From Roridomyces roridus (taxonomy: Eukaryota; Basidiomycota; Agaricomycetes; Agaricales; Mycenaceae), in assembly GCA_029378245.1 (NCBI GenBank), contig JARKIF010000184.1:1-61747 (forward strand): 61,747 nucleotides of DNA. The letters run 5' to 3'. A program made the translations under genes and the position numbers. Below the pieces are notes generated by a model. The model saw only the letters and a list, made by a program, of their open reading frames with translations, was not told the origin of the DNA and did no database searches. Of the stretch, positions 3,146 to 56,756 are shown piece after piece (the first letter of the stretch is position 1; each line of letters starts with the position of its first letter).

Positions 3146-4420
3146 TCACGCAGTCAACTTGAACTGCTCGAAAAGGGCCATCCCAGTCAGGGTTGCGGTC
3201 TTACCCTTCCCTCCCTTAACCGCCGGAGGCTGCACAAGCTCGGCGCTCAAATTCCCAATAAGCCTAGCATACTCGGGGTTCGGGCTGATCAAATGCGAGA
3301 GGACGTTAACCTGCACCGCAAGTGTGCCCTCACCGTTTTCAAGCGGGAGGGTGATGGTATAGCCCGTAGGGACGGGCGAGCTGATTACGGGTGGGTACGT
3401 CGCGTTGACGCCCGTGGGGCGTACGCTGATGCTGCCTGGGGCGCAGCTGGCAGCGAGGATACGCCCGTTTTCGGACGCGTAGGCGCTGACGAATTCCGTG
3501 CCGGTGCGATCGAGAAAGTCGAACCATACGATGGAATACGGGCCGACCCGGCCGTGGCCCCAATACCAGGACGCAACGTTTTTGGTAAAGGGCTGGTCGC
3601 TCCAGTTCTGCCGAAATGTTAGCTCCATGGACTCTGATCGGGGTTGGAGCCCGAAAATTGAATGGACGGACCTTGTCGTGGTAGCCGGTGCCTGTGAACG
3701 CCAGGCCCGCGCCGTTGATCTCCAGGTTGACGACGGCAGCGGAATCTGGAACGGCGTTGGCCCACCCAATGTGCGGGCCCACCTCGAGATTCTGTCCCGC
3801 GCTCACAGGCCCACATGGGTAATGCGCAGGGGCGGGCTATTAATTGAAGGAAAGTTACGACATCTCCATGGGAGTATGTAAAAAAACAGACGCACCGATG
3901 GGAAAGTAATTGTACCCTTGACGCCTGCCGCGGGAGCGTCAATGTTGATGACATACTCTCGGGTGTACGGATTGCTTGTCCAGCTGAAACCAGTTCCGTG
4001 CCAGTCACCGCAAGAGCTATCGCCGTCGGTGGTGACTGTAGCACCTTGTTCGCCGTTAGCAATGGCTTCCCAGAGGGTGCCATTTGGGTAGGAGACCCAG
4101 ATGCGTGCGACGGTGATGGTGTCGGCGGGGTCGAGGAGAGGGAACGCGGGTTGGGAGCTTGCGAAGAAGGTGACGACGACAGAGGCGAGCATGGAGGGAT
4201 CGGTGGAGACGACGTCAAAGTACCACCAGTCAAAGGCAGAGCCGTTTATGGGTTGCACCATGAGCCCATCGAGCCCGGTAGAGCTGGCGGTGAACTGGGC
4301 GACGCTGGTGCCATTTTGGAGGGCGGAGGGTATGTGGAAGACTTTGGAATATGCGATGGAGACGGTGGCGAAGGCCGTCCAGAGCGCGCCGAGGAAAGAT
4401 GTCGGCGAAAAGCGGACCAT
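3146..4420 (-). CDS. Secreted CrtC/AttH lipocalin-fold protein (Diels-Alderase / kievitone-hydratase-like)
   Basis: Three exons, complement of 3897(3896)-4420, 3672-3836 and 3607-3146, all joined in phase 0, give about 383 residues. The start at 4420 is followed by a hydrophobic stretch that looks like a signal peptide (FLGALWTAFATVSIAYS). Family-like landmarks are FDWWYFDVVS near residue 65, APAHYPCGP after intron 1, GYHDKNW across intron 2, and SWYWGHGRVGPYSIVWFD soon after. These are features of the hydroxyneurosporene-synthase/AttH two-lipocalin fold, used in fungi by Diels-Alderases and kievitone-hydratase-like enzymes. Reaction and substrate are inference. No biosynthetic cluster lies beside it. 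An upstream in-frame TTG at 4456 is less likely as the start. Confidence 0.75.
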
Positions 4421-5765: not shown

Positions 5766-5769
5766 GTGA

Positions 5770-5882
5770 TTTCAATCTCCGTTCCGTTGTGGCGAAACTC
5801 GTCAGCATTTCAACCTCCGCTCCGTTGTGGCGAAACTCGTCAGCGTTTCAATCTCCGCTCCGTTGTGGCGAAACTCGACAGC
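5770..5882. repeat. Three-copy 37-bp tandem minisatellite
   Basis: Three consecutive copies of a unit that reads TTCAATCTCCGCTCCGTTGT followed by GGCGAAACTCGTCAGC, with single-base differences. It lies between the orphan promoter copy and the end of the membrane-protein pseudogene. Confidence 0.85.
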
Positions 5883-24630: not shown

Positions 24631-26652
24631 GACTCACCCACAAAACAACTGCCCACTTCCATCGCAGTGTGTGGCCCTGGCCGGCGTGAGCAGCGGAGCT
24701 GCCGAGAAAGAACCGCTGGTACACTGGCGTTTGAGGACAAACCGCATGTCATAGTCCTCGTAGTGCTGCGCTTGGGCTTCAGGCACGCCTTCGTGCGCAG
24801 CGTCGCGATGCTCGTGCTGTGGTGCTGCCGGTGGAGGGCCGGTCCTCACGAAAGGAGCACGGCCCGCGGCGGGTTGGGCTCTGTGAAGAGAGAGTGTTAG
24901 CGTCGTGCATGCTGGCAAATACAGACCGAAGAAGAGAGGGAATGAGGACAGAGGGAAAGAGCAAGCCGGAGTGGGGGGTAGGTGGACGGAAAAGCGGTGC
25001 GTGTGGCGCGCCAAGGAGACGCAATCAGCGATGGTGGCAAAGTACGGTGGGCGTGCACATTAGTCTCTCTCGACAGACCGTGGCTCCGTAACCTCCGTAG
25101 TGCACATAGGAAAAGGGGGAAGAGGCGAGGAAGGACGGAAAACGAGGGCCAGGATTGCGAAGGCAAGAAGTCGAGCGGCTAGAGAAGGGGAAGAGGGCGG
25201 CGGCGGACGGGATGGTGGGGAGGCACGGGGAGCCGTGCATGCAGCTCGCGAGCATCGATCGTCGGGCGGATACGCAGGCACGCTCTGCATACATGGCAGA
25301 ATACCGCTTGCCTGCGGAGGTCGTGCGAGGGTGTGTCACGGTGCCCTCTGTGCGGATGTCCACGCCTGACGTAGGACGCCTCCAAAGACGGGATCTAGGT
25401 CGCGCTGAGGGCGGGCAGGGGTATGAGGGGGCTCGTTGCGAGGCGCACAAAGAGTAGGATGTATTCTGCGAAGGAGGGTGGGGTATAGGTTGACGCCGAC
25501 GAAGCGGCGTGCACATTTACATGATTTCCGAGGTGCCGATGCCGGACGGAGTGGTGCGGGGTGGATGTCGCTAGGGCAGCGGCGTGCGGGGAAGTCGGTG
25601 TCGATGGGATGGTGGTGTCTGCGTCTGTATCCAGATCCGAGTGGGATGCTATGTCCTGCTAGCGCGGAGGTAGTATTGCGGTCGACGGCGAGGCGATTAG
25701 AGCGGCATTTACCGAGAATAGACGGATGGGTGTCTGGGTTACGAGACGAGAAGCCAAGACCGCGTACGATAAGAGAGCATTAGATCAGAGTCGATGTATG
25801 TAGTTGCCTGCTTCTGCTTGGCTTCTGCTGTGACGACCGTGCGACGGCGTCGGAGATGAAGATTCCGCAAACGACTCTGGCTCTGGTTCAAGCCGGCACC
25901 GTCAAGATTGACTACGAACCACCCTTGGCTTGGACTTTGGCCGGCCTCATGGCGAGAACTTCACCTGGACCAGTTTTCATAATGCTTAGCATTCGATTCC
26001 TTAGCGCCGTTTATGCCCTATTACTCCCGCGCGGTCAAAGCGTGAGTTTTGGGTCGTAAGATTAGAAACCCGGGCCATGCGGCGTCGATGTGAATTCAAA
26101 TATTATGCAAGCGCCACTTTCCAGTGCAATGTATACTTAACTCCGTCGCTTCTTTGAGAATATTCACTAGTTCCTTCGTCACACCAGATTCCGGTATCCT
26201 CGTTCCCTGAGCACCAGACTTGGCTCGTCTGTGCCTCGGACTTGCGAAGAAGCCACCCTGTATCATGCTGTAACTCGGCCTCGAGTTGCGCCACCGCCAC
26301 TAGCACGTTGTTTCCTTGCCAGATAGCTGTCAACCATGGGACTTCTTACCTCATTGTCAATATACATGTCGAATTTGTGTTGAATACTCAGGGAATGGTC
26401 GGGATGTTTTCATATTAGCAGGCGAGAATACTCAGAAATTGAACACTGGTGCTCTCTTTCACTCCTCCAGACGGCCCAACAACAAGCCGAACACGGCGGA
26501 AATGAATCCGAAATGGGAAGAGTTCTTCAGCACTGCGTGATATCTGGGGCATGATTGATCGAAATGGCTGTCAAGCGCCACAGTGTGACGGGGGACTTGG
26601 AACTGAGTGTCGACTACGTGGCAACCTCCGTTCCACTTTGCTTTCCACATCC
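24631..26652. other. Long non-coding stretch
   Basis: GA/CT-skewed DNA at 24840-25440 gives overlapping open frames on both strands without motifs. At 26103-26333 (-) a short frame has natural-looking composition (WQGNNVLVAVAQLEAELQHD) but I cannot place it. Nothing else is supported. Confidence 0.4.
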
Positions 26653-29600
26653 ATGTCTGACCACTCAAAGCAGCCCAACTTTCTCGACAAGGTCAAGGGC
26701 AGGGTCAAGGACGGAGCGCACAAAGCCCTTGTGAAAGTCACGGACATATTGCACTCCACTCCGCCACGCAGTCCGGCACCCTCACCGCGGCCAGCTCGAA
26801 GCCCGACACCAGCGCTCGGACCGCCACCCGGTGCAACTCCGAGTGAGTCTTTTCGTTCGCTTTCCAGCCACCGCTGATTCCTTCAACCTAGTCTCGACAC
26901 CTACCCCTCAGAGTACGCCCAGCGGAGGCGATAACGGGGAAGATGCGTCGAAAGGAGCTGATACCGCTCACACTGGTGCGTGTTGTCATATCACATACCT
27001 GCTGCTATTCGCGATTGGAATCAGATATGTCGAATGTTGCGCAGGCTAAGACTGGTAGTGATCCCGTTATTAACCCGCATTTCAAGTCCCCACTCACACC
27101 TGCCAAGAGTTCAACTGGCAGGCCTGGAACATCGACGGCAACGCTATTTCCGAACTCCAGAAGTGGGGCGCCGGCCATGAAAACTCTAAATGGAGGAAAC
27201 TCGCTGATGCGATCGATCACTGCTTGAAGTCGAAGACTCTTGAAGCCGTCCAAGACTTTATACCGGATGGCCCAGTCCCCGTAAAGACCCTCGTGAAAGC
27301 CCTGTTGAGTATTGTTCAGCTTGGTATCGTGCGTTATCCATTCCAATTTGGACTTATTCCAGTCAGCTAACTTGCTTGCTCAGAATGTCCCGGTTATTCA
27401 GAAAAAGGTGTATGACTTCGCTCAGGAGGCTATCGAGTATATCCGTACTCTTGTTGGGATTGTCGGTGAGGAAGCGAGTGTACAGAGGGACTTAGGGGTG
27501 ATTTGGTATGTTTCATTCATCTTCTAGTTCCTTCATGGATACTGACACATGTATAGTACGGCGGTGAACAAGATCTGTAAATGGGCAAACGAGCATGTTG
27601 TGAGTTCATCATTTTCACGCGCAGTCCTGGACTCTCAACTCCCATAGCGGAAAATGACTGTATCTGCCGATGCTTTGGGGGACTGGAGCTCTGAGTTTGC
27701 GAAGGCGAAGGAAATGTTCTTGGTACGGCCGGACATCTCACTCAGGACCTGGACCTGTCTAAAATGGGTTCCCTTCAGACCGCGACTGTTCTTCAAATCA
27801 AAGTAGGGCAGGATAATGACCGGCGGATGGTATGTTTACTCTTCTATGTCCTCTCCCTCCACAGAGAACTCACTGCCCAACCAGGATTTCATCAAGCAGC
27901 AGCTTGCCAACCATGTTGCAACGAGGCATAAATTTACAGATCAGAGCAAGAGCCTTTGTGCAACTGGTACTCGTGTGGAAATCCAGAAGGAAATCGGGCG
28001 ATGGCTATCCCCACAGACTTCTAGCAGCGAACATATCTTCTGGATTACAGGTATAGCAGGCAGCGGCAAGTCGACACTCTCTGCAACTATTGTTGACAAT
28101 CTTGGCAAAAAGAAAACACCAGTCGCAGCTCAGTTCTTTATCTCCCGCAACATAGGTGAAACAATCAACCCAAACCACGTTGTTCCCACCATTGCCAAGC
28201 AGCTCGCAGAATTTTCTCCAGCTGCCGCTCGCATCATCCATGACACATTGAAGAATCACTTCCCCTCTTCCTTGGAAGACCAAGTGAAGGAACTTCTATT
28301 AGCTCCGATCCGGGAAATCTGTAAATCCCATGACAGGGTCGTTATTCTCATTGATGCACTGGATGAGCTCCAGGATGCCGCCAAGAGTGTAGAAGGGATC
28401 CTGTCAATAATTGCACCAAAGGGCTGCGATCTTCCTGATTACATCCGATTCATTATTACTTCTCGACCAGAGCACTGGGCTGTTATCTCCAAATCCAAAA
28501 CTCTAGAGCTCTCAGTGTTCAAACAGGATGCTCTCATGACAGACTCATCTAAGGAGGAAGTGCACAACTTCATTGTTGCAAGGATGAAGGAGATTGCAGT
28601 AAAAGAGGATTGGGATGACTGGCCAACTCTGGACCAATTGGACAAGTTATCCAGAAAAGCGGATGGCCTCTTTCACTATGCCACAACTGCTCTTCAGTGG
28701 ATTGAGCAGCAGATTGACAATATTGGGAGACCCTATCGAGAAAAGGTCTTTGATGAATTTGCCCAAAGCGGTATTGGTCAGCTCGAGGATCTATACAAAC
28801 TCATTTTGGGTGCGTTTGATGATCCCAAACAGAATACAGACACACGTGAAGAGCAACAACTTGGCTTTCAGCACGTCGTGGGGACCATTCTTGTGCTTGA
28901 GAAGCCATTGACCATTGACCAAATCATTGCTTTATTGGGTGATATCCCACGAGATGCCTTTGATGTTATCAAGTTCCTACGGCGGTTCCGCAGTGTCTTG
29001 ATTCCAGGCACGACTGCATCATTCGAGGAAGCAACACCACAGATACACAAATCTTTCCGTGATTATATCATAGGTGTGCATGCACCAGCAGAATTCTGTA
29101 TCCTCACAGGCCATGCACACATGGTAACAGCAAGGAGTTGCATGGAGGTTATTGTCAAGGCAGGGATCAAGCCCGATCCTAAACAACAAGATGCTGTTCA
29201 GCAGTATTCTGTTGACCATTGGCACCAACACTTGCGAAAGGCGGTGGAAGAAGGTGCGACGTTGGAGGATAAGGGGATGCAGAAGGTGTTTGAACAGATG
29301 GCAGAGGATAGGGTCGTCAATGTCTGGAAAGGAAGCTTGTGGCAGGTGTTCATTGATGTGGCTGCCACGGGGTGGGGGCTATTGAAGGTGAGAACGAAAC
29401 ATGAAACAGAGAGCTAAGTGAATAATGATGTTTCAGGAAGGTACTAAGGAAGACAAGATCCAGGGACTTTCGGACATAGTGAGGAAAGTGAAAGTGTGTG
29501 CTAGGTCAACATTGAAGAGCATGAGCACACTGATTCAACATGATTCTGCTGGTCCATAGGAAGTGCGTGCTTTTCCACTGTCGCCGGTCCTTGCCTCGCT

Positions 29601-30877
29601 CACTGTCCCTTGCCTTCTCGTCTCTAGGATGTGCGTGCTTTTTCTCTGTCACCGGTCCTTGCCTCGCTCACTGTCCCTTGCCTTCTCGTCTCTAGGAAGT
29701 GCGTGCTTTTCCTCTGTTGCCGGTCCTTGCCTCGCTCACTGTCCCTCGCCTTCTCGTCTCTAGTTCGTGCGTGCTTTTCCTCTGTCGCTGGTCCTTGCCT
29801 CGCTCACTGTCCCTCGCCTTCTCGTCTCTAGGAAGTGCGTGCTTTTCCTCTGTCGCCGATCCTTGCCTCGCTCACTGTCCCTCGCCTTCTCGTCTCTAGG
29901 ATGTGCGTGCTTTTCCTCTGTCGCCGGTCCTTGCCTCGCTCACTGTCCCTCGCCTTCTCGTCTCTAGGATGTGCGTGCTTTTCCTCTGTCGCCGGTCCTT
30001 GCCTCGCTCACTGTCCCTCGCCTTCTCGTCTCTAGTTGGTGCGTGCTTTTCCTCTGTCGCCGGTCCTTGCCTCGCTCACTGTCCCTCGCCTTCTCGTCTC
30101 TAGTTGGTGCGTGCTTTTCCTCTGTCGCCGGTCCTTGCCTCACTCACTGTCCCTCGCCTTCTCGTCTCTAGTTCGTGCGTGCTTTTCCTCTGTCGCCGGT
30201 CCTTGCCTCGCTCACTGTCCCTCGCCTTCTCGTCTCTAGAGAGTGCGTGCTTTTCCTCTGTCGCCGGTCCTTGCCTCGCTCACTGTCCCTCGCCTTCTCG
30301 TCTCTAGAGAGTGCGTGCTTTTCCTCTGTCGCCGGTCCTTGCCTCGCTCACTGTCCCTCGCCTTCTCGTCTCTAGAGAGTGCGTGCTTTTCCTCTGTCGC
30401 CGGTCCTTGCCTCGCTCACTGTCCCTCGCCTTCTCGTCTCTAGTTGGTGCGTGCCTTTCCTCTGTCGCCGGTCCTTGCCTTGCTCACTGTCCCTCGCCTT
30501 CTCGTCTCTAGGATGTGCGTGCTTTTCCTCTGTCGCCGGTCCTTGCCTCGCTCACTGTCCCTCGCCTTCTCGTCTCTAGGATGTGCGTGCTTTTCCTCTG
30601 TCGCCGGTCCTTCCCTCGCTCACTGTCCCTTGCCTTCTTACATTCAGGGAGTGTGTGATTCCCCTTCCATATTAAACTTCAGTCTCACTGGATTTTGTCT
30701 TTCATTGTCTTCCAGATTGTATGGCCCTCCATCCTCTTCATGACCATTGACTTACTATTTTTCAAGCCTTATCCCAGAATCTGGAACAATGGCCTTCTTG
30801 AAACGTGGAATCAACAGCCATCCACCACTCTCGAAGTACCTCACTCAGTGTCTGGCAACCCTACTCCCAAATATTGA
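26653..30877 (+). CDS. NACHT-type STAND NTPase (NLR-like) with a tail encoded by single-codon exons
   Basis: Predicted signal-transducing P-loop NTPase. Ten long exons stay in phase: 26653-26842, 26892-26975, 27025-27054, 27108-27328, 27384-27505, 27557-27599, 27648-27722, 27779-27829, 27867-29387, 29437-29493 (798 codons). Then come 17 three-nt exons (29560 to 30650, every 68 bp) and a last exon from 30716. The N-terminus is a Pro/Ser-rich lead and a helical domain I do not recognise (about residues 100-270). NACHT motifs: Walker A GIAGSGKST, Walker B VVILIDALDEL, RFIITSRPE, then a winged-helix-like IHKSFRDYI. No WD40, ankyrin or TPR repeats follow, unlike most fungal NLRs. The final exon either runs unspliced to TGA at 30875 (about 868 aa), or ATT (30716-30718) is another 3-nt exon before an intron 30719-30777, ending NLEQWPS. 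Fungal NLRs act in non-self recognition and regulated cell death; that role here is inference. Confidence 0.8.
29494..30715 (+). repeat. 68-bp tandem array: 65-nt introns separated by variable single-codon exons
   Basis: After the exon ending at 29493 there is a 66-nt intron, then a strictly 68-bp array. Each unit is donor GTGCGTGC, branch site GCTCACTG, a pyrimidine tract, CTCGTCTCTAG, then three variable bases. The triplets start at 29560 and every 68 bp to 30648, with no indel in 16 steps. GAA is at 29560, 29696, 29832; GAT at 29628, 29900, 29968, 30512, 30580; TTC at 29764, 30172; TTG at 30036, 30104, 30444; AGA at 30240, 30308, 30376; GGA at 30648. Read as exons they spell EDEFEDDLLFRRRLDDG. 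The last intron (30651-30715) is diverged in sequence but is also 65 nt. An alternative is a single 1.2 kb intron carrying a minisatellite. Confidence 0.95.
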
Positions 30878-33800
30878 TGACACCGGTCATCGGTCTCGAT
30901 AAGCGGGTGAGTGGGGATAGATTTTGCATGTACTTTGTATGCAGCAAGGACTGAACAACTTTCTGGATCTCAGACCAACAAGTCAAGTTTCTTGGAGAGA
31001 TGGGAATGTGGGCGATGTGCGGCTGAATACGGGATAACACTTCGCTGAAAGCGACCTCTCAATTTGAAAGAGTCAGCGCAAAATGAGATATGAATATACT
31101 TTGTTCAGCAAGAATGGTCTTGGTAGGACCGGACGCCAATTGAGCAGTAAGCACAGCTCTTGGAGGTTATTTCTCGACAAGCTGGCCGGTTTTGATAGAT
31201 GATCACACTGAGTATATTCTCTGATGCAGTGGGGAATGCCACACCATACATGGACTACAGAAGAGCTTAAATAGGTCCCGAAGTCTCGGACAACTACGGG
31301 TGAAATAGAAATTACATTGGTCAGGTTCATGGGAAGGAATAGAGCTTCGCATAGTAGGCAAGCGAACCCATTATCGTTTTTTCCGGAAAAAGACTGGTTA
31401 GTTAAGATCAAATTTGATGTCTCGAGAGATGGCAGAACATGTAGCATGATTGATATGTTTGCTTTAGTCCACAAATATGAGGCCCTAGGTTATTCCGCCG
31501 CTCAAAACACTCTTCGTTGGCTACAAGGCATACAAGGCCAATTTCATTAGGAAATTTATGCCGCCACACCCATCCCGTTCCGCCTCCCCGCTGCACCAAC
31601 TCGGTGCACATGTATGCCGCTGTTGTGCCCTCTCACCGTGCGCCACCCGTCCCGGCCCGGCCCACCCCACGTCCCGTCCTGTCGCCACGCCGCCGCTGCA
31701 CCCTCTTCCCACCTCTCCCGCCTTCCCATGCTCTGCCGGCCCCTCTGCCGAGCCCCCCCGTTGGCGCCAATCTGCTCACTCCCCAATGTCCTTCCCCATG
31801 CGTCACATACCCGCACCCACCTCGCCACTGCCCCATTACGCACGCCTGTCCCATCTCGTCGTGCACCCGTTCCACCCCACGTCCATACCGCTCCTGTCCC
31901 TCTCCTGCCCCCGTACTGGCATCCATGTCCGTTAGGCAGGCTATCCTGCTCCAGGACTGTGCCACATCAGACCCACCGTCCCCACCTCATCACTGCGCCC
32001 TCTGCCCACACCCGCCGCTGTAGCGCACGTCCCACACCTGCTCACACCACCCACGCACCCACTTCCCACCACCGCCCGCCCTCCCCCAGCGCCTCTTCTC
32101 CGTACCCGAGTCCCCTCTTCGCGCACGCCTGTGCCTGCAACCCGCCGTCTGCCCCGCACACAGACCACACCGGCAGCTTCCATGCATCAGGAAAAAATCT
32201 CCTTCGGAAATCTGGGGGGAATTTGGCATCCCCCAAAGCCAAAATTGCCAGTTTGCCCAGATTCCGGTAAGTCGGGGAGACTGGTTGAATTTGACCCAAC
32301 CTGGTACCAAGCTGGCCAAAGTGGTAGTACTGGTTCGTCCACCAATGTTGAAATGGAGGACTGGATTTGGCTTCTTCCGTTGACTCTGGACCAGGTAGGC
32401 ACCATGGGTCTCTAAGTTCAACTCTTATTGGATGTAAATATTTTATCAAGGTCTTTTACTTTATTTTTATTCAGAGACCATTAAAAACTGTAGTATACAG
32501 CATGATAATTATAAGGGTCTACGCTTATCTAAGTCTCTCCACTCAACCCACTGATAAATAAGTAACCCCCGGGCCCCGAGTCTTCCACTGCCGATGTCAA
32601 AGAGCACAACGTACCGCCGCCAGCCCCTAACCTAACCTAATCCAAATCAAATCCACTCCCGGCGTAACTCCAGAAGATTTTGAAGTCAGAGTCGGAGGGG
32701 AGACTCAAGGGAGACTTCAAGGTGCACCGGTTGCGCACCGGAATTCTATGTTCCCGGATTGCATCCGAACGGTCTGGGCCTGATGGGCAGCCGATTGCGT
32801 GCTCATTGATCACCATGTGACCACTGACATGTGCGGCCGTATGGCACATATACTGTGCAAAAATTCATGGCAGGTACATCTCATTTGGTCGCAGGGTTTT
32901 CAGTTGCAACTGACATGTTGGGTGTCGAAAAGCTTACAACCTTGAGCGTGGGTTACATGTGTGGTGAGCAAGCTTGCAACCCAGTATGGGATGCTTTCAT
33001 GTTCAATTGGATGCAGAAATGGAGTTGGTGGTAGAGAAATTTCTGAGGTTTGATGGGAGTGATTTGAAAATTGATGATCCTTCCTTGCCGAATTCCACAA
33101 ATGGAAATTGGCGATCATTTATGATGATTTCACTCATCTCTGAGCACTAAAATGCCCCGGGGCATACTCTCAAGGTTCAAACACACACAGAATGGTATTC
33201 CACATACTGTAGACTGTGTTTCCGACTCCCCTGCAACTGTCCCGGTCGTATGACCTTCATAATGGGGTACAGATAAAAATTTGAACTAACACAAGCAATC
33301 TTCAGTTCTGTGGAGACGAGTGGCATCAAAACTAACCATATAGCATACCGGACGCTTGCCAGATGCATCCCGTCTCAATCCCGCTGTCCAATCCGATGTT
33401 CATCCTTCCGTGGGGCGGCGCCGAGGGGCCGGATTGATCCCGATCAAATCAGAAGATACTGATACCCCCGGCGGGGATGCGAGCCATGGGCAACATGCGA
33501 CCGATTTGGGATGCAAGCTCACCGAAAGATGAGCGTGAGATGTAAGTTGCCTGCAAAAAACCTGTAAAATCTTGCTAATTTTTGCACAATATATCGCCCA
33601 TACGGCCGCAAATCGACTCTCTTCTCTTCCACCACCACCACCCTCACCCCGAATCACATCTCCTCGCATCTCCCACATTCCGAGAACCTACTTTCACTCA
33701 ACTTTGTATGCTTCTCAGATGACCGGAGGCTGAAGACGAAGAGGGTGCATTGCCTGTGGAGACGCACAAGTCGGTACGTCGAGTGACTCCATCTCGTTGT

Positions 33801-40608: not shown

Positions 40609-43600
40609 TCAGGACACGATCTTCCATCGTCCGTTAACCCGTTCTTCACGGAGTGCAGTCGGGTTCTTCTGGTAGAATTCCTCTATGCATTCCTCCGCCC
40701 CATCCAGCAAGGCGCGTTTTTCCCAAGTCCATTCGGCCGACGGGTAATCCTTCCATTTGATGAAGTAGCGCAAGGTGTTGCGCTGATTCCCACTGCCCCT
40801 CTTGACTTTCAGAATCTCCTCCACCTCGTACTCATAGTGACCGTCAACCACGTCTGGGGGTGGTGGGTCCACCGTCTTCTGATGTTCGGCCACTGGTGGC
40901 ACCCAGGGTCGAAGGTAGACCGTATTAAAAACCGGGTGAACCTTCCACGATGCCGGCGTTTTGATTTCGTACGAGAGGGACCCAATCTTGCACACCACAG
41001 GGAAAGGACCATAGCGTCGGTCCTCGAATTTCTTGGTGGGTCGGTGCGTCTGCAGATTCTTTCCCTCTAGCCACACCTTATCGCCTGCTTTGTACCCCGG
41101 GTCGGGTTGTCGACTTCGATCGTAGTATTTCTTCATAACATCCTGCGCATGGCGCATTGCCGCTGCGGCTTCTGCCTGTACCTTCTCCATTCGCTGTGCG
41201 AATTCCATCGCCTTCTCCGTCGGGACTTCTCGCAACGGCTCAATTCCTTTCCGCGGATGGAACCCGAGAGTCATAAAGAAGGGGCTAAAGCCCGTCGTCG
41301 CATGAACCTTGTCATTGTAGGAGAATTCGGCCAAGGTCAGCCACTCTGCCCAATCGTCCTGCATGAAGTTGGTAAAGATTCGGAGGTACTGCTCCACCTC
41401 TTGGTTCACCCGCTCGGTTTGACCGTCGGTTTGCGGATGATACGCTGTCGACGCGTTCGACTTCATTCCCAAAAGCTTCATCAAGTCTCGCATAAAGTGG
41501 CCCACGAATTGTGTTCCACGGTCGCTGATCACCACCTCCGGTAACCCGTAATCCTTCCACACATTATCTCGATATATCCGGGCGATCCCTTCGCCTGTAA
41601 TCTGTTCCCTGCAGGGAATAACCCGAATTCCTTTGCCCAGTCGGTCCACAATCACCACGATACTGTCATATCCTTTTGACTCCGGTAATTTCGTGATTAG
41701 GTCGATCGAGACGTTCTGCCATACTCGTTCGGGTACTGCGTTTGGTGACAATGATCCACGAGGTTTGGATGGAAACGTCTTCGTCTTCTGGCACGTCGAA
41801 CAAGCGGCTACGTATCGCTTGATGTCCCGGGTCATGGATGGCCAGTAGTAGTTCCGTGCTACCAATTCCGCCGTTCGATATTGCCCAGGATGACCGGCCA
41901 TGTACGTATCATGGTGAGCTCGGGTTATGTGATGGCGTAGCTCTTTGTCAGAAGGGACGTATACTGCTCCATGCCTAGTCAAGAACCCGTCGTGTTCCTG
42001 CCAGGTCGGGTTCTCCTCATCGGCTTCTTCATCCTTGCTCTTGGCCAAACCTTCCTTGGCTGCATCCTCCCACTTGTTGCGGGCGTCCTTGATGCGTTGC
42101 AAAAATTGGTCCCCTCCTTCCTGGTCCGGGATTGCTCGCAGAAATTCCTCCTTCGGTATCTGTTGAAATTTATCTGCCGGTAGCAACGTGATATCGCTGT
42201 TATCCTTTGCCCCCTTTTCATGGCCATTTCGCCTCGAAAGGGCATCCGTCTTGTTATGCGTCTTGCCCGGTTTGTGGATCAGCAGAAAGTCGTATTCACT
42301 CAGCTCCAGCGACCACCGTGCCTGTCTTCGGTTCAGCTTCTTCGTCGTCATGAAGTAAGCCAAATTCTTGTGGTCCGTCCAAATCTCGAACGTTTTGTTG
42401 CTGCCTTGAAGGAAATGCCTCCACTCGTACAAACCTCGCATAATCGCCAACATTTCCTTGTCGTGGATGTCATAATTTCGTTCCGTGTCGTTAAGAGATT
42501 TGGACAAGAACCCGATCGGGACCCAGACCCCGTTCTGGAGTTGAGAAAGCACAGCCCCGGTCGCGAAATCCGAGGAGTCGGCTTCCATCCGCCATTCGCC
42601 ATGGTCGGTCGGAAAGTGTAGCACCGGTTCGGCGGTGACCAAACTTCAGCTTTTCGAACGCTCTCCTCTCTTCACCTCCCCACCGCCACCGATAGTCTTT
42701 CCTCGTCAAACGTGTCAAGGGTTTGGAGTGGATCCCGAACCCCGCAATAAACCGACGGTAGAAGTTGAGGAATCCAAGGAAGCTCTGCACCTCCTTGACC
42801 GTCTTGGGTTCTGCCCACTCCCGCACCCCCGCAACCTTTACGGGGTCCATCCGAATCTTCCCATCCCCGATGATTACACCGAGGTATTCGACCTCGCGCT
42901 TCTCGAACTCACACTTCTCGGGTTTCAAGTACAAGTCGTTCTCCTGCAGGATTTGCAGCACCTCGCGCACCGTTCTCTGGTGCTCCTCCTTGTTGGAGGA
43001 ATAAATCAAAATATCGTCCAAGTAGACAATAACCCGACCCTCCGCGATCTGTCGGGCAAAGATATCGTTCATCATGCACTGGAAGGTCGCCGGCGAGTTC
43101 GTCAACCCGAAAAACATCACCAAGGGCTCGAACAACCCCCGATTAGTGATGAACGCTGCCTTCTCCTCGTCCCCCTCCTTTATCCGGATATTGTTGTAAC
43201 CCCATCGCACGTCCAGCTTCGTGAACCACGTCGCGTTCCGGAGGTTATGCATTATCTCGGAAATCAGCGGTATCGGGTACCGGTTCTTGATCGTGATTGC
43301 GTTCAACCTTCGATAGTCTTGTACCGGTCGGAGCTTTCCGTCTTTCTTTTTTACGAAAAAGAAAGGAGATGCAAACGGGGACTTCGAGGGACGTATACGT
43401 CCTGTCTTCAGGTGTTCTGCAATGAACTCGTCCAACTCCTTCTGTTCCGGGATCGATAGGGGGATAACCCGACCCCGGGCGGGTTCCGCCCCGTCCTTCA
43501 GTTCGATAGCGTGGTCCCAGCGCTTCCGTTCCGGTAGTTTGTCGAAGTCCTTCTTGTCGAAGACACTGCGAAATTCGTCCAGGTAATGAGCCGGCACGAT

Positions 43601-44650
43601 ATCCTCCATTGCCTGGTCGCCTTTCGCGTTGTGGGCCGCCGCTGCCAATTTCGTCGCAACCGAGCCCATAGCTCGGATATGTTCCGCATGCTGGGCGTCC
43701 TCTTCTTCGTAGATTCGGGTGACGAATACCCGATCGTCAGGTTCCAACCCATCTTCGTCTTCGGCCTCCCATTGCTTCCAGAGGCGCTCGGTGCGGCATG
43801 CGGGCGGGCAACGGGTAAAAGACAATTTTCCGTTACTCCAGTCGATCTCGGGGTTGTGTCGTTTCAGCCACTTGTACCCCAGAATGACATCCGTCTTCCC
43901 GGTGTTGGTCAAGGCGAAGGTCATCACTTCCTCATGATCCTCCACCGTTGTGCGCATTCTGACCACTTGTCGAATCTTGCCCCCCGCGTTGGGGGTGTTA
44001 TCCGCGTTGTAGACCGGTACCGGCATCGGAAGGTCCTCCACGTCGAGCCCATGCCTCTCAGCAAACGCCTGATTCATGAAGCCCTCCGCCGTAGCCCCGG
44101 TGTCCAACAGCCCTACCACCGTATACCCCCGGAGGCTGGCCAAGTCCTGCACCACCATAGGGACCATCACCGAAACCCCGCCCATGGCGCGAATAAAGGA
44201 AGGCGGGTTCTGCAGCTCTTCAATCGCTGTAAGAGCATCGGGTCGATAGAGACGCAGTAGTTCCTCGACGTATTCTTCGGTAATTTCGGTGCGTCGGGTT
44301 TTGAACGTCCAATTCCGCAGCATCTCCACTGCGTGCGGCCGCTGCGCGTACATTCGGTCCAACAGTCGCTCGGCGCTGTTCGGTGGTAGCCCCTTCCACG
44401 ACGCCTTTGGGGTAGGGGGTACGACTTTGACCTTCTTTCGGGGTATCGGCTTCTTACTCCTCCACTCGGGGACAGGAGCGTCGGTTTCTTGTTCGTTTGC
44501 CACGATTTGAGAATCTTTGTCGTTCAATAGAGTATGAAATTGATTAGTGAACGACTTGGGTACATGAGGTATCGAGGGAGACCGGGAGGACGTGGCTTTC
44601 AATCCCGGTCGTTGGAAAAATCCTCTGGGGACTCTTCATCCGAATCCTCT
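40609..44650 (-). CDS. Gypsy Pol polyprotein (protease-RT-RNase H-integrase-chromodomain), one frameshift
   Basis: First frame (to about 42640): aspartic protease LLDTGAT; RT with VRWGYNNIRI, FGLTNSPATFQCMMNDIF and catalytic VYLDDILIYS. One extra base in TTTGGTCACC near 42640 moves the reading into the second frame: RNase H (MEADSSDFATGAVL, IWTDHKNL), integrase zinc finger (HHITRAHHD, CSTCQKTK), core with VSIDLITKLP, VISDRGTQF and HPQTDGQTERVNQE, GPF-type region, and chromodomain (YEVEEILKVKR, YFIKWKDYPSAEWTWE). The start follows Gag by a -1 shift. With LTRs this alike, the break must be recent, a sequencing error, or a programmed shift. Confidence 0.9.
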
Positions 44651-45945
44651 TTGGTGTCGGGTTCTTCCACCATGGCACGGAACTGCGCGGTAACGTGCGC
44701 ATGGGTCGGGCAGTTACGGCGAATGTGTCCTTTGAGCCCGCATCCATAGCAGTGAACTTCGCTGCTAGGTTGGCGACGGCCCGTATTCGTGCGATCGATA
44801 TCCATGGGGGCCGGGACGTTGCTCGCAGTCGTAGCGATGCTGGTACGTATGGTGGGGTTGCTGGTACTGCTTCCTGAAGCGTTCGTGTTCGTGTTCGTGT
44901 TCGTGCGCTGGGTGCCGAATCGGTTGAACCCTTCCGTACGATTGAACCCTTCAAGTCGTTTCGGGTTCTGTATCGGGTTCCGTCCCCCGCCTCCGTACGA
45001 CCCCGAGTTGGGGTTCCCAGCTTTCCCGAATCCCGCCTTATCTCCCGTCAGGAGAGTATTCTTCAGGACGCGGAACTGTCTCTTGAGCCCATCACGCTTG
45101 ATGGCTTCTTCTTTCCACCCTGCGTAGGTCTTGGGGAGTTCTCCGTTAACTCCTTCGTAAATCGATTCCACTACCTCTTGACTGAGACCCGTTTTGAGGA
45201 GGCCGATAAGCGTGGTATTGTCGTATCCCGCCGTTCTGTTATACGAGTCGAGAATGGTGAAGTAGCTCGTGGCCGTACCATTCGCCTGCCGAAGGTGTTC
45301 CATCTTGGCTTGGGCTTCCTCCACCTGGGCCCCTCCCTTGAAGCTGGAGATAATGTCGGCCTCGAACGCCGCGTAGGTGGTGTAGGCGCCAGTGCCGCTG
45401 CCGTTGCACATGGCCTTTACTACGGTTTCGGCCCAGATCGCCGCGGACCCCCCTTTCATGTAAGACAGGGTAAAATTGATCTTGGCGGAGTCCTTTTCGT
45501 ATACGGGGTTGTCCTGGAAGTTAAGGTAGCAACCCGCCAAGAACCCGTCCACGGTCTCGGCAGCCCCCGAAAAGTCGGCGGGGGCGGCAACCCGCGCTCT
45601 GCGGGATTTATCACCACCCCCCTGTTTCGCGTCCAACTGGTTCTTCAGTATATCCAACATGACGCTGTTGGTCTTCGCAATATGGTCCTCCATCATCGAG
45701 ATGCGTTTGAATGCATCCTGGAGATCGTTCTGGAGGTGCAAGACTCCGGCTTGCAACCCCGCCTCCGGGTTCCCGTCTGGTCCCCAGATTTCCGTCAATA
45801 GCCCGCGAGTTGCGGCGCTCAGCGCTTCCGCGCGATCGAATATGTGGGCTTCGCGTGCCGTCTGATCCAATCCTTGATAGTGGATGGCGTCCGTCGACTG
45901 GAACGCATCTCGGTTCGGTATACCCAGTGCAGTAGGGTCCATCGT
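44599..45945 (-). CDS. Gypsy Gag polyprotein
   Basis: About 448 residues from MDPTALGIPN; a longer in-frame start at 45996 would lie inside the LTR. The central part has the retrotransposon Gag region (FLAGCYLNFQDNP, AAIWAETVV), then a Gly/Asn/Thr-rich segment and one CCHC zinc knuckle, CYGCGLKGHIRRNC, near the C-terminus for RNA binding. It ends at TGA 44599-44601 and overlaps the start of pol by about 50 nt in the -1 frame. GATTTTTCC in the overlap could be the slip site. Confidence 0.92.
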   Translation of the reverse strand, partial: TMDPTALGIPNRDAFQSTDAIHYQGLDQTAREAHIFDRAEALSAATRGLLTEIWGPDGNPEAGLQAGVLHLQNDLQDAFKRISMMEDHIAKTNSVMLDILKNQLDAKQGGGDKSRRARVAAPADFSGAAETVDGFLAGCYLNFQDNPVYEKDSAKINFTLSYMKGGSAAIWAETVVKAMCNGSGTGAYTTYAAFEADIISSFKGGAQVEEAQAKMEHLRQANGTATSYFTILDSYNRTAGYDNTTLIGLLKTGLSQEVVESIYEGVNGELPKTYAGWKEEAIKRDGLKRQFRVLKNTLLTGDKAGFGKAGNPNSGSYGGGGRNPIQNPKRLEGFNRTEGFNRFGTQRTNTNTNTNASGSSTSNPTIRTSIATTASNVPAPMDIDRTNTGRRQPSSEVHCYGCGLKGHIRRNCPTHAHVTAQFRAMVEEPDTKEDSDEESPEDFSNDRD

Positions 45946-45987
45946 TTCGTTCGGTCGAGTGTTCGAGTAAAGGGGAGACGAATCTTT

Positions 45988-46348
45988 TGTCAGCACCTAG
46001 GGCTAAGTCGGGTTCTAGTCGGCAACGAACGAGGCGACCGAGCGAAGAGCAGCAGACGAGACTCAAGAGGTAGAGCAAGCCGTAGGGAGAATAGACTAGA
46101 TTTGTCTACAGTACTGAGACTGTAGACGGGTATATATACTACATGATCGAATTAGGTACGAGGGGTAGGGGGTAGGAGCAGGGGTGATCGGAACAGGTAG
46201 GGGTGTAAATGCAGGGGAGAGTGGAGTACCAAGCAGGGGTTGAGACAAGACCCGGCCGATCAGTGATGATCACTGATTAGAGTATTGATGGTTGATGGTT
46301 GATCGTGTTACAACCCGTCGGGTTGTGGCCTGGGGTCATATCATGACA
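45988..46348 (-). repeat. Gypsy 5' LTR
   Basis: 361 bp, second LTR. The sequence just inside (- strand AAAGATTCGTCTCC) does not begin with TGG, so a standard tRNA 3'-end primer is not obvious; self-priming or an internal tRNA site is possible. Confidence 0.95.
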
Positions 46349-52385: not shown

Positions 52386-55300
52386 TCAAGCGCGAGTCAT
52401 TCCAAGTCGAGAGACGAAATACTCGTGCTTGGACTTGTCGAGTGCTTTGGTAAACAAGTCCGCGGTGTTCTCCGAGGTAGGGCAGTAGGAAACTGATACT
52501 TCGTTAGAAGTGAGGTTCTCCCGAATGAAGTGGTGCCGAACGTCAATATGTTTGGAGCGGGCGTGGAAACCAGAGTTCTGCGCGAAGGAGATAGTGCCGT
52601 GATTGTCAACAGAGATGTGAGTGGGAAGATGGGGTGCGTAGCCGAGCTCAGAGAGCATACTACGAAGCCAGAGAGCTTCGCGGGTGGCTGATGCAAGAGC
52701 CATGTACTCTGCCTCCATGCTCGATAGCGCCGTGGTTGGTTGCTTCTTTGAGTTCCAAGTCACAACTCCCCCTGCAAGGGTTGAGAGGTAGCCGGTGACA
52801 GATCGGCGGTCGTCGGGCGAGTTAGCCCAGTCGGCATCAGAGAATAACTCGATGGTGGAGTGCTGATCCGACGTGTATTTGATACCGAGATTGACAGTGC
52901 CGCGAAGGTAGCGGAAAACTCGTTTGACGGCGGTGAGGTGAGCGGGGCCGGGATTCAGACTGAACTGGGAGAGAGTCTGAACGGCAAAGGAGATGTCGGG
53001 CCGTGTGGAAATGGCGGCGTACATGAGTGATCCAACCATGTGCTGATAGACACGTTTGATCTCAGGGTGAGACTCCGAGTCTGGCGTCTTGGTGAGTTTC
53101 ACGTGGGGATCCATCGGTGTGGTGGAGGGGTTGGAGTTCTGCATCTGGAATCGCTCGAGAATCTTGGTGATGTACTGTGACTGGCTCACAAAGATAGAAC
53201 CGTCAGTGTCTCGAGTGATCTCCATTCCCAAAAGTTGGCGAATATCACCGAGTTTCTTGATATTGAACATCTGCTCAAGTTCGGATTCCGCGGCAGCGAT
53301 GAGGGCGGGCGATGATGCAAGGATGGTCATGTCATCAACATGAACGGCTATGATCGTGATGTCGGTGCCGCTACGTTTGATGTAAACGCACTGGTCGGAT
53401 AGAAGGCGTGAGTATCCGCGGGAGAGGAATGATGAATTGAGCTCGATGTTCCAGACACGGCCGGACTGCTTAAGACCATAAATAGCCTTGTTGAGTCGTA
53501 GTGCAAGAGTTGTGCCGTCCTGATATAACTCGGGTTGTTGCATGTAAATCTCCTCGTCGAGCTTGCCATTGAGGTAAGCACCGATAACGTCAACCACATG
53601 TATGTCAAGGTTGTAACGGGCGGCGAGAGCGAGAAGTAGACGGATGGTTTCCATGCGAACGACGGGTGCAAAAGTTTCATCAAAGTCGATGCCGGGGATC
53701 TGAGAAAATCCTTTAGCAACGAGACGGGCCTTGTAGCGTGTGATAGAGCCGTTCTCGTCGCGCTTCACACGGAAAACCCATTTACAGGGAATGGCGGTGC
53801 GATCACGGGGTAAAGGTGCTGGGGAAAATGTATTGAGGTTACGGAGCTGATCCATTTCCTCATCCATCGCTTTCTTCCACTCAAGCCAGTCGGGCCGTGA
53901 CTTAGCCTCATCAACTGTGAGTGGATCATTGGAGATGGGATCGGAATTTACGGCAGGCAGTGCAAAGCCGAGTAGTGCACTGTCGGGCTTAGCGTACTTC
54001 CGAGTGCGTGGGCCGAGAATGATGTTGTCCTCCGAGATGGCACTGCTGATGTCGCGTGGTGCCTTCGGGCGGGGTGCAGTGGCCGGTGATGTGGGAATGG
54101 ATGGGGCAGGTGTCAGAGTGCTCGGAGTGGGAGCAACGGGAGACGGTGGAGTGATGGGGGCGGCTGTTGGCGTCGTTTGCGTAGCCTCAGGCTCAACCGG
54201 AGTGGATTTTGACGTGGAATCCAATAAACTCTCCCCCTTGAGCGGAGGCGGAGCTGTGTCAGATGTGACAGGTTCCCGGATGAAAGTGATGTTCCGTGAG
54301 GTAAGTACCTTGTGCGTATGTGGGTTGTAGTAACGCCAAGCACCGGATTCGTCGGAAAGTCCAACAAATTTGCAAGATTTAGTCTTAACAAAGACTTTAC
54401 CGTTCTTGCCATCCTGCTGCGAGACTTCGCAGGGATTGCCGAATTCCTCTAGAGCACTGACGTCAGGCTTCTTTCCTGTATAGGCCTCGTCCGGTGTAAT
54501 CTTATCACCGAGAGCGTGCGAGGGTGACCTATTTTTCAGGTACGTGGCGTAGGCAACGGCTTCGGGCCAGAGGGAAAGGGGTAAGCTGTGTGCGGCGAGC
54601 ATGGCACGAGCATGCTCAATAAGCGTGCGATTGAGCCGCTCGGCAACACCGTTCTGCTGAGGTGAGTAAGGTGCCGTGAGCTCAAGACGGATGCCGCGGG
54701 AGCCGAGATAGTCGCGAACTGCCTTAGAAATGTATTCCTTGGCGTTGTCACAATGAAAAGCTTTGACACGTTTGCCGGTTTGCGTGGAAATGTACGCATC
54801 GTAGTGCTGCATTTTGTCTATGACCTCCGTGCGCTTCTTCATGAAGTAGAGGATAGTGCGGCGTGTCTTTGCGTCCGTGAAGCTGATGTAATAGCGCTCG
54901 CCCGAGATGCCGGTGACGCGCGATGGTCCCCAAACATCTGTGAAAGTGTTGTCACCGATGTCAGAATATGTCCGTTCAGCCTCGGCTGGAAACGGAGTGA
55001 CGTGTGACTTGGCTTTGATGCATGCCACGCACTGTGCTGAGGGTGTGCTGGTGGGATCAACCCTCATCCCATTGACCATGTTGTTGTTCTTCAACATCCG
55101 GATGGATGCCGGCGAGATATGGCCAAAAATACGATGCCATTTGTCCCATGAGTGTGCGGGAGCAACGGCGGCAAAGGTTGGTACAGTGGAAACGGCGGGT
55201 GCAGTCGGAATGGGTGATGGGACTGATGGAACAGCGGGCATGGCGGCGGCGGCGGCCGTGATGCGGTTGGCAGGTTGAGTGATCTGGAGTAAGTAGAGTT

Positions 55301-55670
55301 TACCGATCTTTCTGCCACGCATGATTTCGCGTCGACTGGATCCCTTGGTGAATATGTGCATGTAATCACCGTCAAATTGGATCAGAAAGCCAGCATCGGC
55401 AATGCGGCTGATGGACAAGAGGTTGTATGGCGAGCTGGGGACATGAAGGGAATTATTGAGTGTGATGTTGTATGCCGAACTCTTGACATGAGAGGCAATG
55501 ACAGCGGAGCCGGTGCCGTCGCATTTCACACTGCCGAAACCAGTGATGGTTCGGTCACTGTGCGCGTAAGTGGTGAATAATTCCCGCTTCTTGATGATGT
55601 GAGACGTGGCGCCAGAATCGGCGAGCCAGGCGTCAGGGGACAGAGCGGGTGCAGTGGAGTCCCGTGCCAT
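52386..55670 (-). CDS. Copia Pol polyprotein
   Basis: 1,094 residues, one open frame. Order: protease (WLADSGATSHI, unusual only in lying close to the frame start), GAG-preintegrase zinc region (WDKWHRIFGHIS, CVACIKAKSH), integrase core (DVWGPSRV, FHCDNAKEYIS, SPQQNGVAERLNRT), Pro/Thr-rich spacer, RVT_2 reverse transcriptase (WVFRVKRDENG, ARLVAKGFSQ, AIYGLKQSGRVW, VHVDDMTI in place of the common YVDDM), and RNase H (DADWANSPDDRRSVTGYL, SSMEAEYMALA, KHIDVRHHFIRE, ENTADLFTKAL). It looks intact, but Gag is frameshifted. Confidence 0.95.
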   Translation of the reverse strand: MARDSTAPALSPDAWLADSGATSHIIKKRELFTTYAHSDRTITGFGSVKCDGTGSAVIASHVKSSAYNITLNNSLHVPSSPYNLLSISRIADAGFLIQFDGDYMHIFTKGSSRREIMRGRKIGKLYLLQITQPANRITAAAAAMPAVPSVPSPIPTAPAVSTVPTFAAVAPAHSWDKWHRIFGHISPASIRMLKNNNMVNGMRVDPTSTPSAQCVACIKAKSHVTPFPAEAERTYSDIGDNTFTDVWGPSRVTGISGERYYISFTDAKTRRTILYFMKKRTEVIDKMQHYDAYISTQTGKRVKAFHCDNAKEYISKAVRDYLGSRGIRLELTAPYSPQQNGVAERLNRTLIEHARAMLAAHSLPLSLWPEAVAYATYLKNRSPSHALGDKITPDEAYTGKKPDVSALEEFGNPCEVSQQDGKNGKVFVKTKSCKFVGLSDESGAWRYYNPHTHKVLTSRNITFIREPVTSDTAPPPLKGESLLDSTSKSTPVEPEATQTTPTAAPITPPSPVAPTPSTLTPAPSIPTSPATAPRPKAPRDISSAISEDNIILGPRTRKYAKPDSALLGFALPAVNSDPISNDPLTVDEAKSRPDWLEWKKAMDEEMDQLRNLNTFSPAPLPRDRTAIPCKWVFRVKRDENGSITRYKARLVAKGFSQIPGIDFDETFAPVVRMETIRLLLALAARYNLDIHVVDVIGAYLNGKLDEEIYMQQPELYQDGTTLALRLNKAIYGLKQSGRVWNIELNSSFLSRGYSRLLSDQCVYIKRSGTDITIIAVHVDDMTILASSPALIAAAESELEQMFNIKKLGDIRQLLGMEITRDTDGSIFVSQSQYITKILERFQMQNSNPSTTPMDPHVKLTKTPDSESHPEIKRVYQHMVGSLMYAAISTRPDISFAVQTLSQFSLNPGPAHLTAVKRVFRYLRGTVNLGIKYTSDQHSTIELFSDADWANSPDDRRSVTGYLSTLAGGVVTWNSKKQPTTALSSMEAEYMALASATREALWLRSMLSELGYAPHLPTHISVDNHGTISFAQNSGFHARSKHIDVRHHFIRENLTSNEVSVSYCPTSENTADLFTKALDKSKHEYFVSRLGMTRA

Positions 55671-55699
55671 AAAAGCAAATCAGGTGATTCGGGGCTGGG

Positions 55700-56584: not shown

Positions 56585-56756
56585 GATCGAGAGGCGTCGA
56601 GTGTGCGTCGGAAAACGGTGATCAAGGCGTGTGACGGTTTGAGCTGTCAAGCTGGCGTGTGATTATCGAGAGGCGTCGAGTGTGCGTCGAAAACCGGTGA
56701 TTAACGTGTGTGACGGTTTGAGCGGTCAAGCTGGTGATAGACGTGTGATTATTCGG
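56585..56756 (-). repeat. Two tandem about 85-bp repeats in the Copia leader
   Basis: The string ATCGAGAGGCGTCGAGTGTG recurs at 56587 and 56669, each followed by a TGTGACGGTTTGAGC stretch. They lie between the LTR and the Gag start. Confidence 0.8.

Follow-up and report, generated by a model that had tools for sequence, protein, structure and literature searches.

The window analysed here, the whole 61,747-nucleotide (nt) stretch of Roridomyces roridus contig JARKIF010000184.1, carries on its forward strand a gene for a NACHT-type receptor of the NLR class and, downstream of the open frame for the receptor core, an array, a 68-nt tandem repeat in which each unit joins a variable triplet to 65 nt of near-invariant sequence bearing intron signals. 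The core open frame scores above the Pfam cut-offs for both PF24883 (NPHP3_N; E = 5.8e-26, 92.1 bits, cut-off 24.8) and PF05729 (NACHT; E = 2e-10, 41.2 bits, cut-off 26.7), and so holds the NACHT-type nucleotide-binding domain of a fungal NLR (NACHT/STAND); the core exon itself probably starts near 27885. C-terminal superstructure repeats are common, though not universal, in fungal NLRs. No Pfam match to WD40, ANK or TPR was found in the three pieces scanned, which included the core open frame, and the conserved C-terminus of the gene stops 53 codons past the array.

Within the array, AG-NNN-GT is found at all 17 positions 29560 + 68i (i = 0 to 16), just as a sequence-only reading of the window had described it for every 68 bp from 29560 to 30648. 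The spacers separating the triplets are 65 nt long in 16 of 16 cases, and Tandem Repeats Finder delimits the repeat at 29557-30638 with a period of 68, 15.9 copies, 95% matches and 0% indels. The branch-like motif reported by the same reading is present as CTCAC in all 16 spacers, with its A 25 nt upstream of the 3' splice site, so that GT...AG and a branch motif, the signals of spliceosomal introns, occur in each of the 16 candidate introns, whose excision is predicted. Its claim of 65-nt introns holds for these 16 and fails for the first flanking intron, which is 66 nt long, both flanking introns being unlike the repeat. Its two phase-0 flanking exons, ending at 29493 and starting at 30716, agree with the conservation of 29437-29493 and 30716-30877 in those paralogues that have them. 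The predicted model of this part of the gene places 17 consecutive 3-nt exons behind one of 57 nt (Table 1). Spliced literally, the triplets yield EDEFEDDLLFRRRLDDG, in the predicted junction context KVK-EDEFEDDLLFRRRLDDG-IVWPS, and about 4% of the array would be coding if the triplets are exons. The 49-nt intron upstream is removed in the protein record P0049 and in many Mycena gene models.

Table 1. Observed and predicted features of the receptor gene and its array, in window coordinates (copies are named by contig; see text).
Feature	Position	Strand	Remarks
NLR core open frame (NPHP3_N/NACHT)	27807..29387	+	phase-0 end at AAG before GTGAGA, edge from sequence
Predicted intron, 49 nt, GTGAGA...TTTCAG	29388..29436	+	8/8 compared copies identical
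Conserved exon, 19 codons, EGTKEDKIQGLSDIVRKVK, phase-0 end at AAA	29437..29493	+	homologous to ..KDKMQGISNILMKAK in Mycena models
Predicted first flanking intron, 66 nt, outside repeat	29494..29559	+	65-66/66 identical in 8 copies
Candidate micro-exon 1, GAA (E)	29560..29562	+	GAA first in 8/8 copies with 5' end, redundant C116 counted
16 near-identical 65-nt candidate introns with 15 candidate micro-exons between, GTGCGT...CTCAC...AG	29563..30647	+	
Candidate micro-exon 2, GAT (D)	29628..29630	+	
Candidate micro-exon 3, GAA (E)	29696..29698	+	
Candidate micro-exon 4, TTC (F)	29764..29766	+	
Candidate micro-exon 5, GAA (E)	29832..29834	+	
Candidate micro-exon 6, GAT (D)	29900..29902	+	
Candidate micro-exon 7, GAT (D)	29968..29970	+	
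Candidate micro-exon 8, TTG (L)	30036..30038	+	
Candidate micro-exon 9, TTG (L)	30104..30106	+	
Candidate micro-exon 10, TTC (F)	30172..30174	+	
Candidate micro-exon 11, AGA (R)	30240..30242	+	
Candidate micro-exon 12, AGA (R)	30308..30310	+	
Candidate micro-exon 13, AGA (R)	30376..30378	+	
Candidate micro-exon 14, TTG (L)	30444..30446	+	
Candidate micro-exon 15, GAT (D)	30512..30514	+	
Candidate micro-exon 16, GAT (D)	30580..30582	+	
Candidate micro-exon 17, GGA (G)	30648..30650	+	GGA last in 8/8 copies with 3' end, redundant C116 and C448 counted
Predicted last flanking intron, 65 nt, different sequence, GTGTGT...CTCAC...TTCCAG	30651..30715	+	
3' exon, IVWPSILFMTIDLLFFKPYPRIWNNGLLETWNQQPSTTLEVPHSVSGNPTPKY (IVWPSILFM...PTPKY)	30716..30877	+	phase-0 start, stop 30875-30877

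A whole-genome search with the exact junction query CTCTAG-NNN-GTGCGTG returned 193 matches, against 4 for a reversed control, and all 193 fall in the window and in eight stretches around NLR copies, amounting to about five places and one NACHT/NLR family. Triplet counts are 17 in C95 (the window), 28 in C224b, 34 in C82, 36 in C224a, at least 59 in C335, 5 in C257 and 5+5 in C464; the C335 array runs off the contig end and was counted up to its error-rich end, hence the lower bound, and C116 and C448 are redundant, error-prone contigs of the place represented by C95 and C224b. The 3' exon is open in C95, C82, C116, C224a, C224b and C257. Five main loci (C95, C82, C224a, C224b and C335) together hold 174 triplets; the longest array, that of C335 (L043, C335:1-9000), would encode the tract EKRKDRKREWWWRWGEELEEEEE..., in which 39 of 59 residues are charged. 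The NLR copy in C464 (L045, C464:96000-105900) is broken, its array lying in two inverted halves with one flank each, and at C257:553842-556907 (L046) the NLR open frame is interrupted, core matches ending at 555266 and restarting at 556665. No arrays were found in other NLR families when about 2.5 kb past the frame was scanned in six distant paralogues of the many listed, and a Mycena-type read-through peptide gave no match in the R. roridus genome, a weakly informative result since the frames shift.

To compare triplets with the 65-nt parts we pooled 173 units from C95, C82, C224a, C224b, C335, C464 and C257, excluding C116 and C448 altogether, the final unit of every locus and any unit with a 65-nt part of altered length; pooled units were chosen to begin with GT and end with AG, yet the five main loci parse without any skipped unit. 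Nucleotide diversity (pi) at the three triplet positions is 0.685, 0.631 and 0.658, near saturation, against a mean of 0.044 and a maximum of 0.366 over the other 65 positions, 28 of which never vary, GT and AG included; the CTCAC motif shows three deviating bases in total. Ranked by variability, the top three of the 68 positions are those of the triplet and no others (by random choice, 1 in 50,116). Taken per locus, they hold the top three ranks in C95, C224b and C335; in each of C82 and C224a one of them comes fourth, behind a position of the 65-nt part in third rank. The most frequent 65-nt sequence, with 39 copies, has 8 different triplets directly before it and 7 directly after it. Eleven kinds make up the 174 triplets of the five main loci (GAA 47, TTG 43, GAT 20, AAA 14, CGG 12, TTC 10, AGA 8, TGG 8, CTG 6, GGA 5 and TCC 1), a further kind, TTT, being found in C464, and the residues they encode are E, D, K, R, L, F, W, G and S only. 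Every one of the 174 is 3 nt long, while seven 65-nt parts in the same loci are altered in length, to 64, 66, 79 or 83 nt. An 83-nt array intron in C82 (L039 5432) owes its length to an 18-nt stretch duplicated within it, by which a second GTGCGTGC donor is gained.

Two pairs of loci have co-linear flanks: C95 and C224b (C224:727239-) lie at the same chromosomal place, and C82 corresponds to C224a (C224:652232-). Going by sequence, these pairs are probably alleles of a dikaryotic or otherwise uncollapsed assembly. For C95/C224b the left flank is identical at 4053 of 4101 positions (44 mismatches, 4 gap positions) and the right flank at 2120 of 2124 (3 mismatches, 1 gap), with arrays of 17 and 28 triplets; for C82/C224a one flank is identical at 3714 of 3729 positions (14 mismatches, 1 gap) and the other at 2645 of 2656 (11 mismatches), with arrays of 34 and 36. 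Array order and length thus differ within both pairs, though the aligned flanks differ by 0.2-1.2%. When units were aligned, 5-11 triplets differed of 15-16 aligned in C95/C224b and 5-18 of 20-29 in C82/C224a, figures that depend on the weights used, and the 65-nt parts differed by 0.8-2.4% in the same alignments. Exact blocks of 3-4 units recur in C224a, C335 has a run of identical units, and neighbouring triplets are equal more often than expected in all five loci (no significance test was applied); these patterns uphold the earlier proposal of tandem duplication of a triplet together with its 65-nt part, whereas introner-like spread, also suggested by the sequence-only reading, finds no counterpart in 193 junctions that all stay in one gene family. 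The array units appear mostly to move as blocks. A region of the window at about 32840-33603 is missing from the co-linear C224 copy, and its part 33000-33603 is ~100% identical to several places in the genome; by these sequence comparisons it is a recent mobile-element insertion.

Units of the same type occur in related species, where they are known as read-through protein of gene models, the DNA studied being that of R. roridus itself. Among 120 listed homologues of 182 above the cut-off, 18, from 11 other named Mycena species, carry one or more array units in translated form past the NLR core, and two or more units in one model are found in 9 Mycena species; the named homologues listed are all Mycena or Roridomyces, with P0001 and P0004 representing R. 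roridus (Mycena rorida). In P0041, from M. sanguinolenta, 21 residues that derive from the intron are the same across 10 of 10 units, and those that derive from the exons vary. Of 21 exon lengths implied by such read-through models, 15 are 6 nt and 6 are 3 nt, on the assumption that the donor 4 nt downstream was used and with a bias from frame selection in the gene models. The first residue past the exon marked by KAK is E, as in the window, in P0017, P0018, P0041, P0042 and P0098. By eye, a C-terminus like the 3' exon is present in M. vulgaris P0111, its start only in M. capillaripes P0018 and its end only in P0049 and M. leptocephala P0104. M. vulgaris P0110 and P0113 show a stretch of R (KRRRRRRR) or of E (ERAEEEEEEEENE) close to the array's position, as if a charged run had arisen from a GAG microsatellite. 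No array DNA of relatives was confirmed in the viral-contig and genome-contig collections searched.

Because variation is confined mainly to the interval between AG and GT, while the splice signals are kept and the triplets are kept at 3 nt, we favour single-codon exons over a minisatellite: the 17 window triplets are, in our estimation, rather probably exons of one codon each, joined stepwise into a hypervariable tail of the NACHT (NLR-type) receptor. From the sequence we infer splicing, the function of the tract and selection upon it as follows. A tract of charged and bulky residues would be encoded between two conserved exons. Introns would be recognised by intron definition and taken out in order from the 5' end; with every 65-nt intron lost, the growing exon would gain one codon and find the next GTGCGT donor at its edge. 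Such a ratchet, similar to recursive splicing, would leave one residue per step and would spare a 3-nt exon the crowding of two spliceosomes, which cannot occupy it simultaneously. The intron sequence would be held by splicing and concerted evolution, with the codon free, or selected, to vary, and unequal exchange would add, drop or shuffle residues with the frame intact because each unit would be exactly one codon and one intron. By analogy, the most likely use would be self/non-self or ligand recognition by the C-terminal, sensor-side end, new tracts being favoured by selection as with the hypervariable repeat codons of fungal NLRs of the HET-E/HET-D type.

Several observations weigh against single-codon exons. 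No stop occurs among the 174 triplets, where 28.7 would be expected with independent positions, but when the 11 kinds are shuffled by column 16% of shuffles are likewise stop-free, and stop depletion was accordingly demoted from a main argument to a weak one. Intervals other than 3 nt occur in C448 and in the last ~0.5 kb of C335; in our judgement they are sequencing errors at contig ends, in stretches full of short indels. Between copies the NLR core has a ratio of non-synonymous to synonymous differences (pN/pS) of 0.63-1.00, on few differences, indicating weak constraint. Where identical rare introns form runs, the three best runs give 0 of 10 unit pairs with unlike triplets (2 of 4 in a weaker fourth run, in C95/C224b), so that a triplet moves together with its intron and there is no sign of a separate mutator acting on codons; codon hypermutation was rejected as unsupported by the three best blocks. 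In P0041, 6 of 9 implied 6-nt exons begin YGA, which is CGA or the stop TGA, the protein being ambiguous between them, and the first residue past the KAK exon is not E in P0006 (R), P0019 (S), P0043 (V) and P0045 (A). Public gene models, where inspected, either skip the array or treat it as exon, and a tail-directed protein search (6 matches among 141 candidates) brought up no evident spliced tract. Finally, P0049 is an 853-codon intron-free open reading frame on a 2808-nt contig, where the window gene has several introns, and so is transcript-like; it joins the homologue of 29437-29493 in phase to the 3' exon, which is thereby coding, and by eye it has about two residues beyond a direct junction of the flanking exons and no clear tract. 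This record supports coding flanks, not triplets, and its own gene may be without an array; its predicted structure (26 sequences, mean predicted local distance difference test score, pLDDT, of 60.6) has residues 802-853 below 50, helical and not usable.

The in-phase link between flanking exons in P0049, with no tract evident, suits a different explanation, in which 29494-30715 is a single long intron holding a minisatellite, its inner AG and GT are relics or decoys, and no triplet enters the mRNA, the product joining AAA straight to ATTGTATGG. The public R. roridus model P0004, which skips most of the array, would also fit, and minisatellites ordinarily undergo block duplication and change in length. 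A long intron would not predict variation centred precisely on the three bases that separate AG from GT, nor 174 triplets that are all of 3 nt and stop-free while seven 65-nt parts change length, nor an invariant GT and AG with a near-invariant branch motif, nor the recurrence of the pattern in M. sanguinolenta; it would also have to measure 1.2 to ~4 kb or more, against neighbouring introns of 49 and 66 nt. The sequence-only reading had named this as its simplest rival, and the variation pattern, the several loci, the two co-linear pairs and the read-through models of another species weaken it; we consider it unlikely, with a probability that is still appreciable.

A second explanation keeps the triplets exonic and has them included in variable subsets, random skipping giving each transcript a different in-frame selection of codons. 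In fungi, short introns are as a rule excised through intron definition between the nearest sites, and full inclusion is thereby favoured. We regard this explanation as improbable. It would draw on the near-equal signals across the array introns, on the phase 0-0 of all the exons, by which skips would keep the frame, and on the variation by single residues through exon skipping described for flatworm micro-exon genes (MEGs; PMC7653826). The notion that a once continuous charged exon was split by an introner-like element (ILE) inserted after each codon would account for near-identical introns separating unlike triplets. It sits badly with 193 exact junctions in one gene family and none dispersed, with 11 triplet kinds in the five main loci arranged in runs and repeated blocks, and with an order and number that differ between copies whose flanks are 0.2-1.2% apart; phase-0 insertion after every codon is moreover hard to picture, and we give this notion very little credence. 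The short indels scattered over C448, over C116 and over the final ~0.5 kb of C335 are of the sort expected at poor long-read ends and might point to an assembly artefact. This is the least probable explanation, as C95, C82, C224a and C224b have few indels and each holds triplets and intron variants absent from the others, and units are present in other species' assemblies too.

Other readings of the array were rejected. For an array of structured RNA or small RNAs, there was no Rfam match at gathering scores in 26500-31500, and two array units folded no better than shuffles (z +1.47). A coding repeat read straight through is contradicted by the 68-nt unit, which shifts the frame at each repetition; several Mycena gene models mix three frames across the array. 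Elsewhere in the window are two further tandem repeats, at 5769-5882 (38 bp x 3.0) and 56586-56734 (79 bp x 1.9), and, on the reverse strand, retrotransposon genes identified by Pfam at 40612-45996 (RVT_1, RNase H, integrase, chromo, gag) and 52389-55679 (RVT_2, integrase).

No description of such an array was found among the listed titles and abstract openings of the open-access literature searched. Among systems with related features, MEGs are flatworm genes and not NLRs, and the bicycle genes of aphids have exons longer than those of the array and introns that do not form a tandem repeat. The HET-E, HET-D and HET-R proteins of Podospora are NLRs with high internal conservation of repeats, which are WD40 and, in such receptors, also ANK and TPR; near-identical repeats of the HET-E/HET-D type carry hypervariable sites under diversifying selection (PMC4986451, PMC12222747). 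As with those proteins, the receptor is of NACHT type, its tandem repeats are near-identical with a small number of hypervariable codons in each, and alleles differ in length (PMC4986451, PMC12222747). At the DNA level it thus has near-identical repeats with hypervariable codons, variable between alleles; unlike the HET-E type, its unit is almost wholly intron-like with one codon each, so that the repeat is not a protein repeat, a unit would encode one residue rather than a folded module, and it would take splicing to assemble the tract. In schistosomes and tapeworms, MEGs are defined by at least 7 exons, of which micro-exons (<70 nt, divisible by 3) make up at least half with a run of at least 4, and the gene as predicted here would resemble them in having consecutive tiny exons of lengths divisible by three; they differ in that every array exon would be one codon and MEG exons may be anything below 70 nt, identical tandem introns going unmentioned in the portion of that source used (PMC7653826). 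Bicycle genes have many micro-exons, as the array would, and fast-evolving proteins, but almost all of their internal exons start at codon position 2 (PMC9168663).

Isolated exons of 3 nt or 1 nt are experimentally known from Drosophila homothorax and Arabidopsis APC11, and intron definition with recursive splicing has been proposed as the route for the 1-nt exon (PMC7392893, PMC4674806). Those exons are isolated, whereas the arrays considered here would hold 17 to at least 59. As with recursive-splicing exons (RS-exons), each splice would re-create a donor at the junction (PMC6224609); cryptic RS-exons vanish without trace, and each step in the array would leave one codon. Fungal ILEs resemble the array in their many near-identical introns (PMC4457414). 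They are dispersed in unrelated genes, whereas copies of the array intron stay within one family, where they increase in tandem, and with all 193 exact junctions in NLR-family loci we rejected membership among them for want of dispersal.

We propose, tentatively and at a little short of even chances, that Mycena-type fungi own a spliced minisatellite, a tandem repeat with coding function and with one intron and one codon to each unit, in which a spliceosomal ratchet would write an allele-specific recognition tail of 5 to at least 59 residues onto an NLR, recombination would edit that tail without risk to the frame, and equal splice sites may add combinations at the mRNA level. If the triplets are exons, this would be the most extreme exon array that we found in the open-access literature, and would offer a strong natural test of minimum exon size and of sequential intron-defined splicing as well as a clear-cut example of introns gained through tandem duplication, with one residue per gain. 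Public gene models would then be wrong at the C-terminus of these receptors in many Mycena genomes, and the fungi would possess a new, frame-proof means of diversifying an immune-type receptor.

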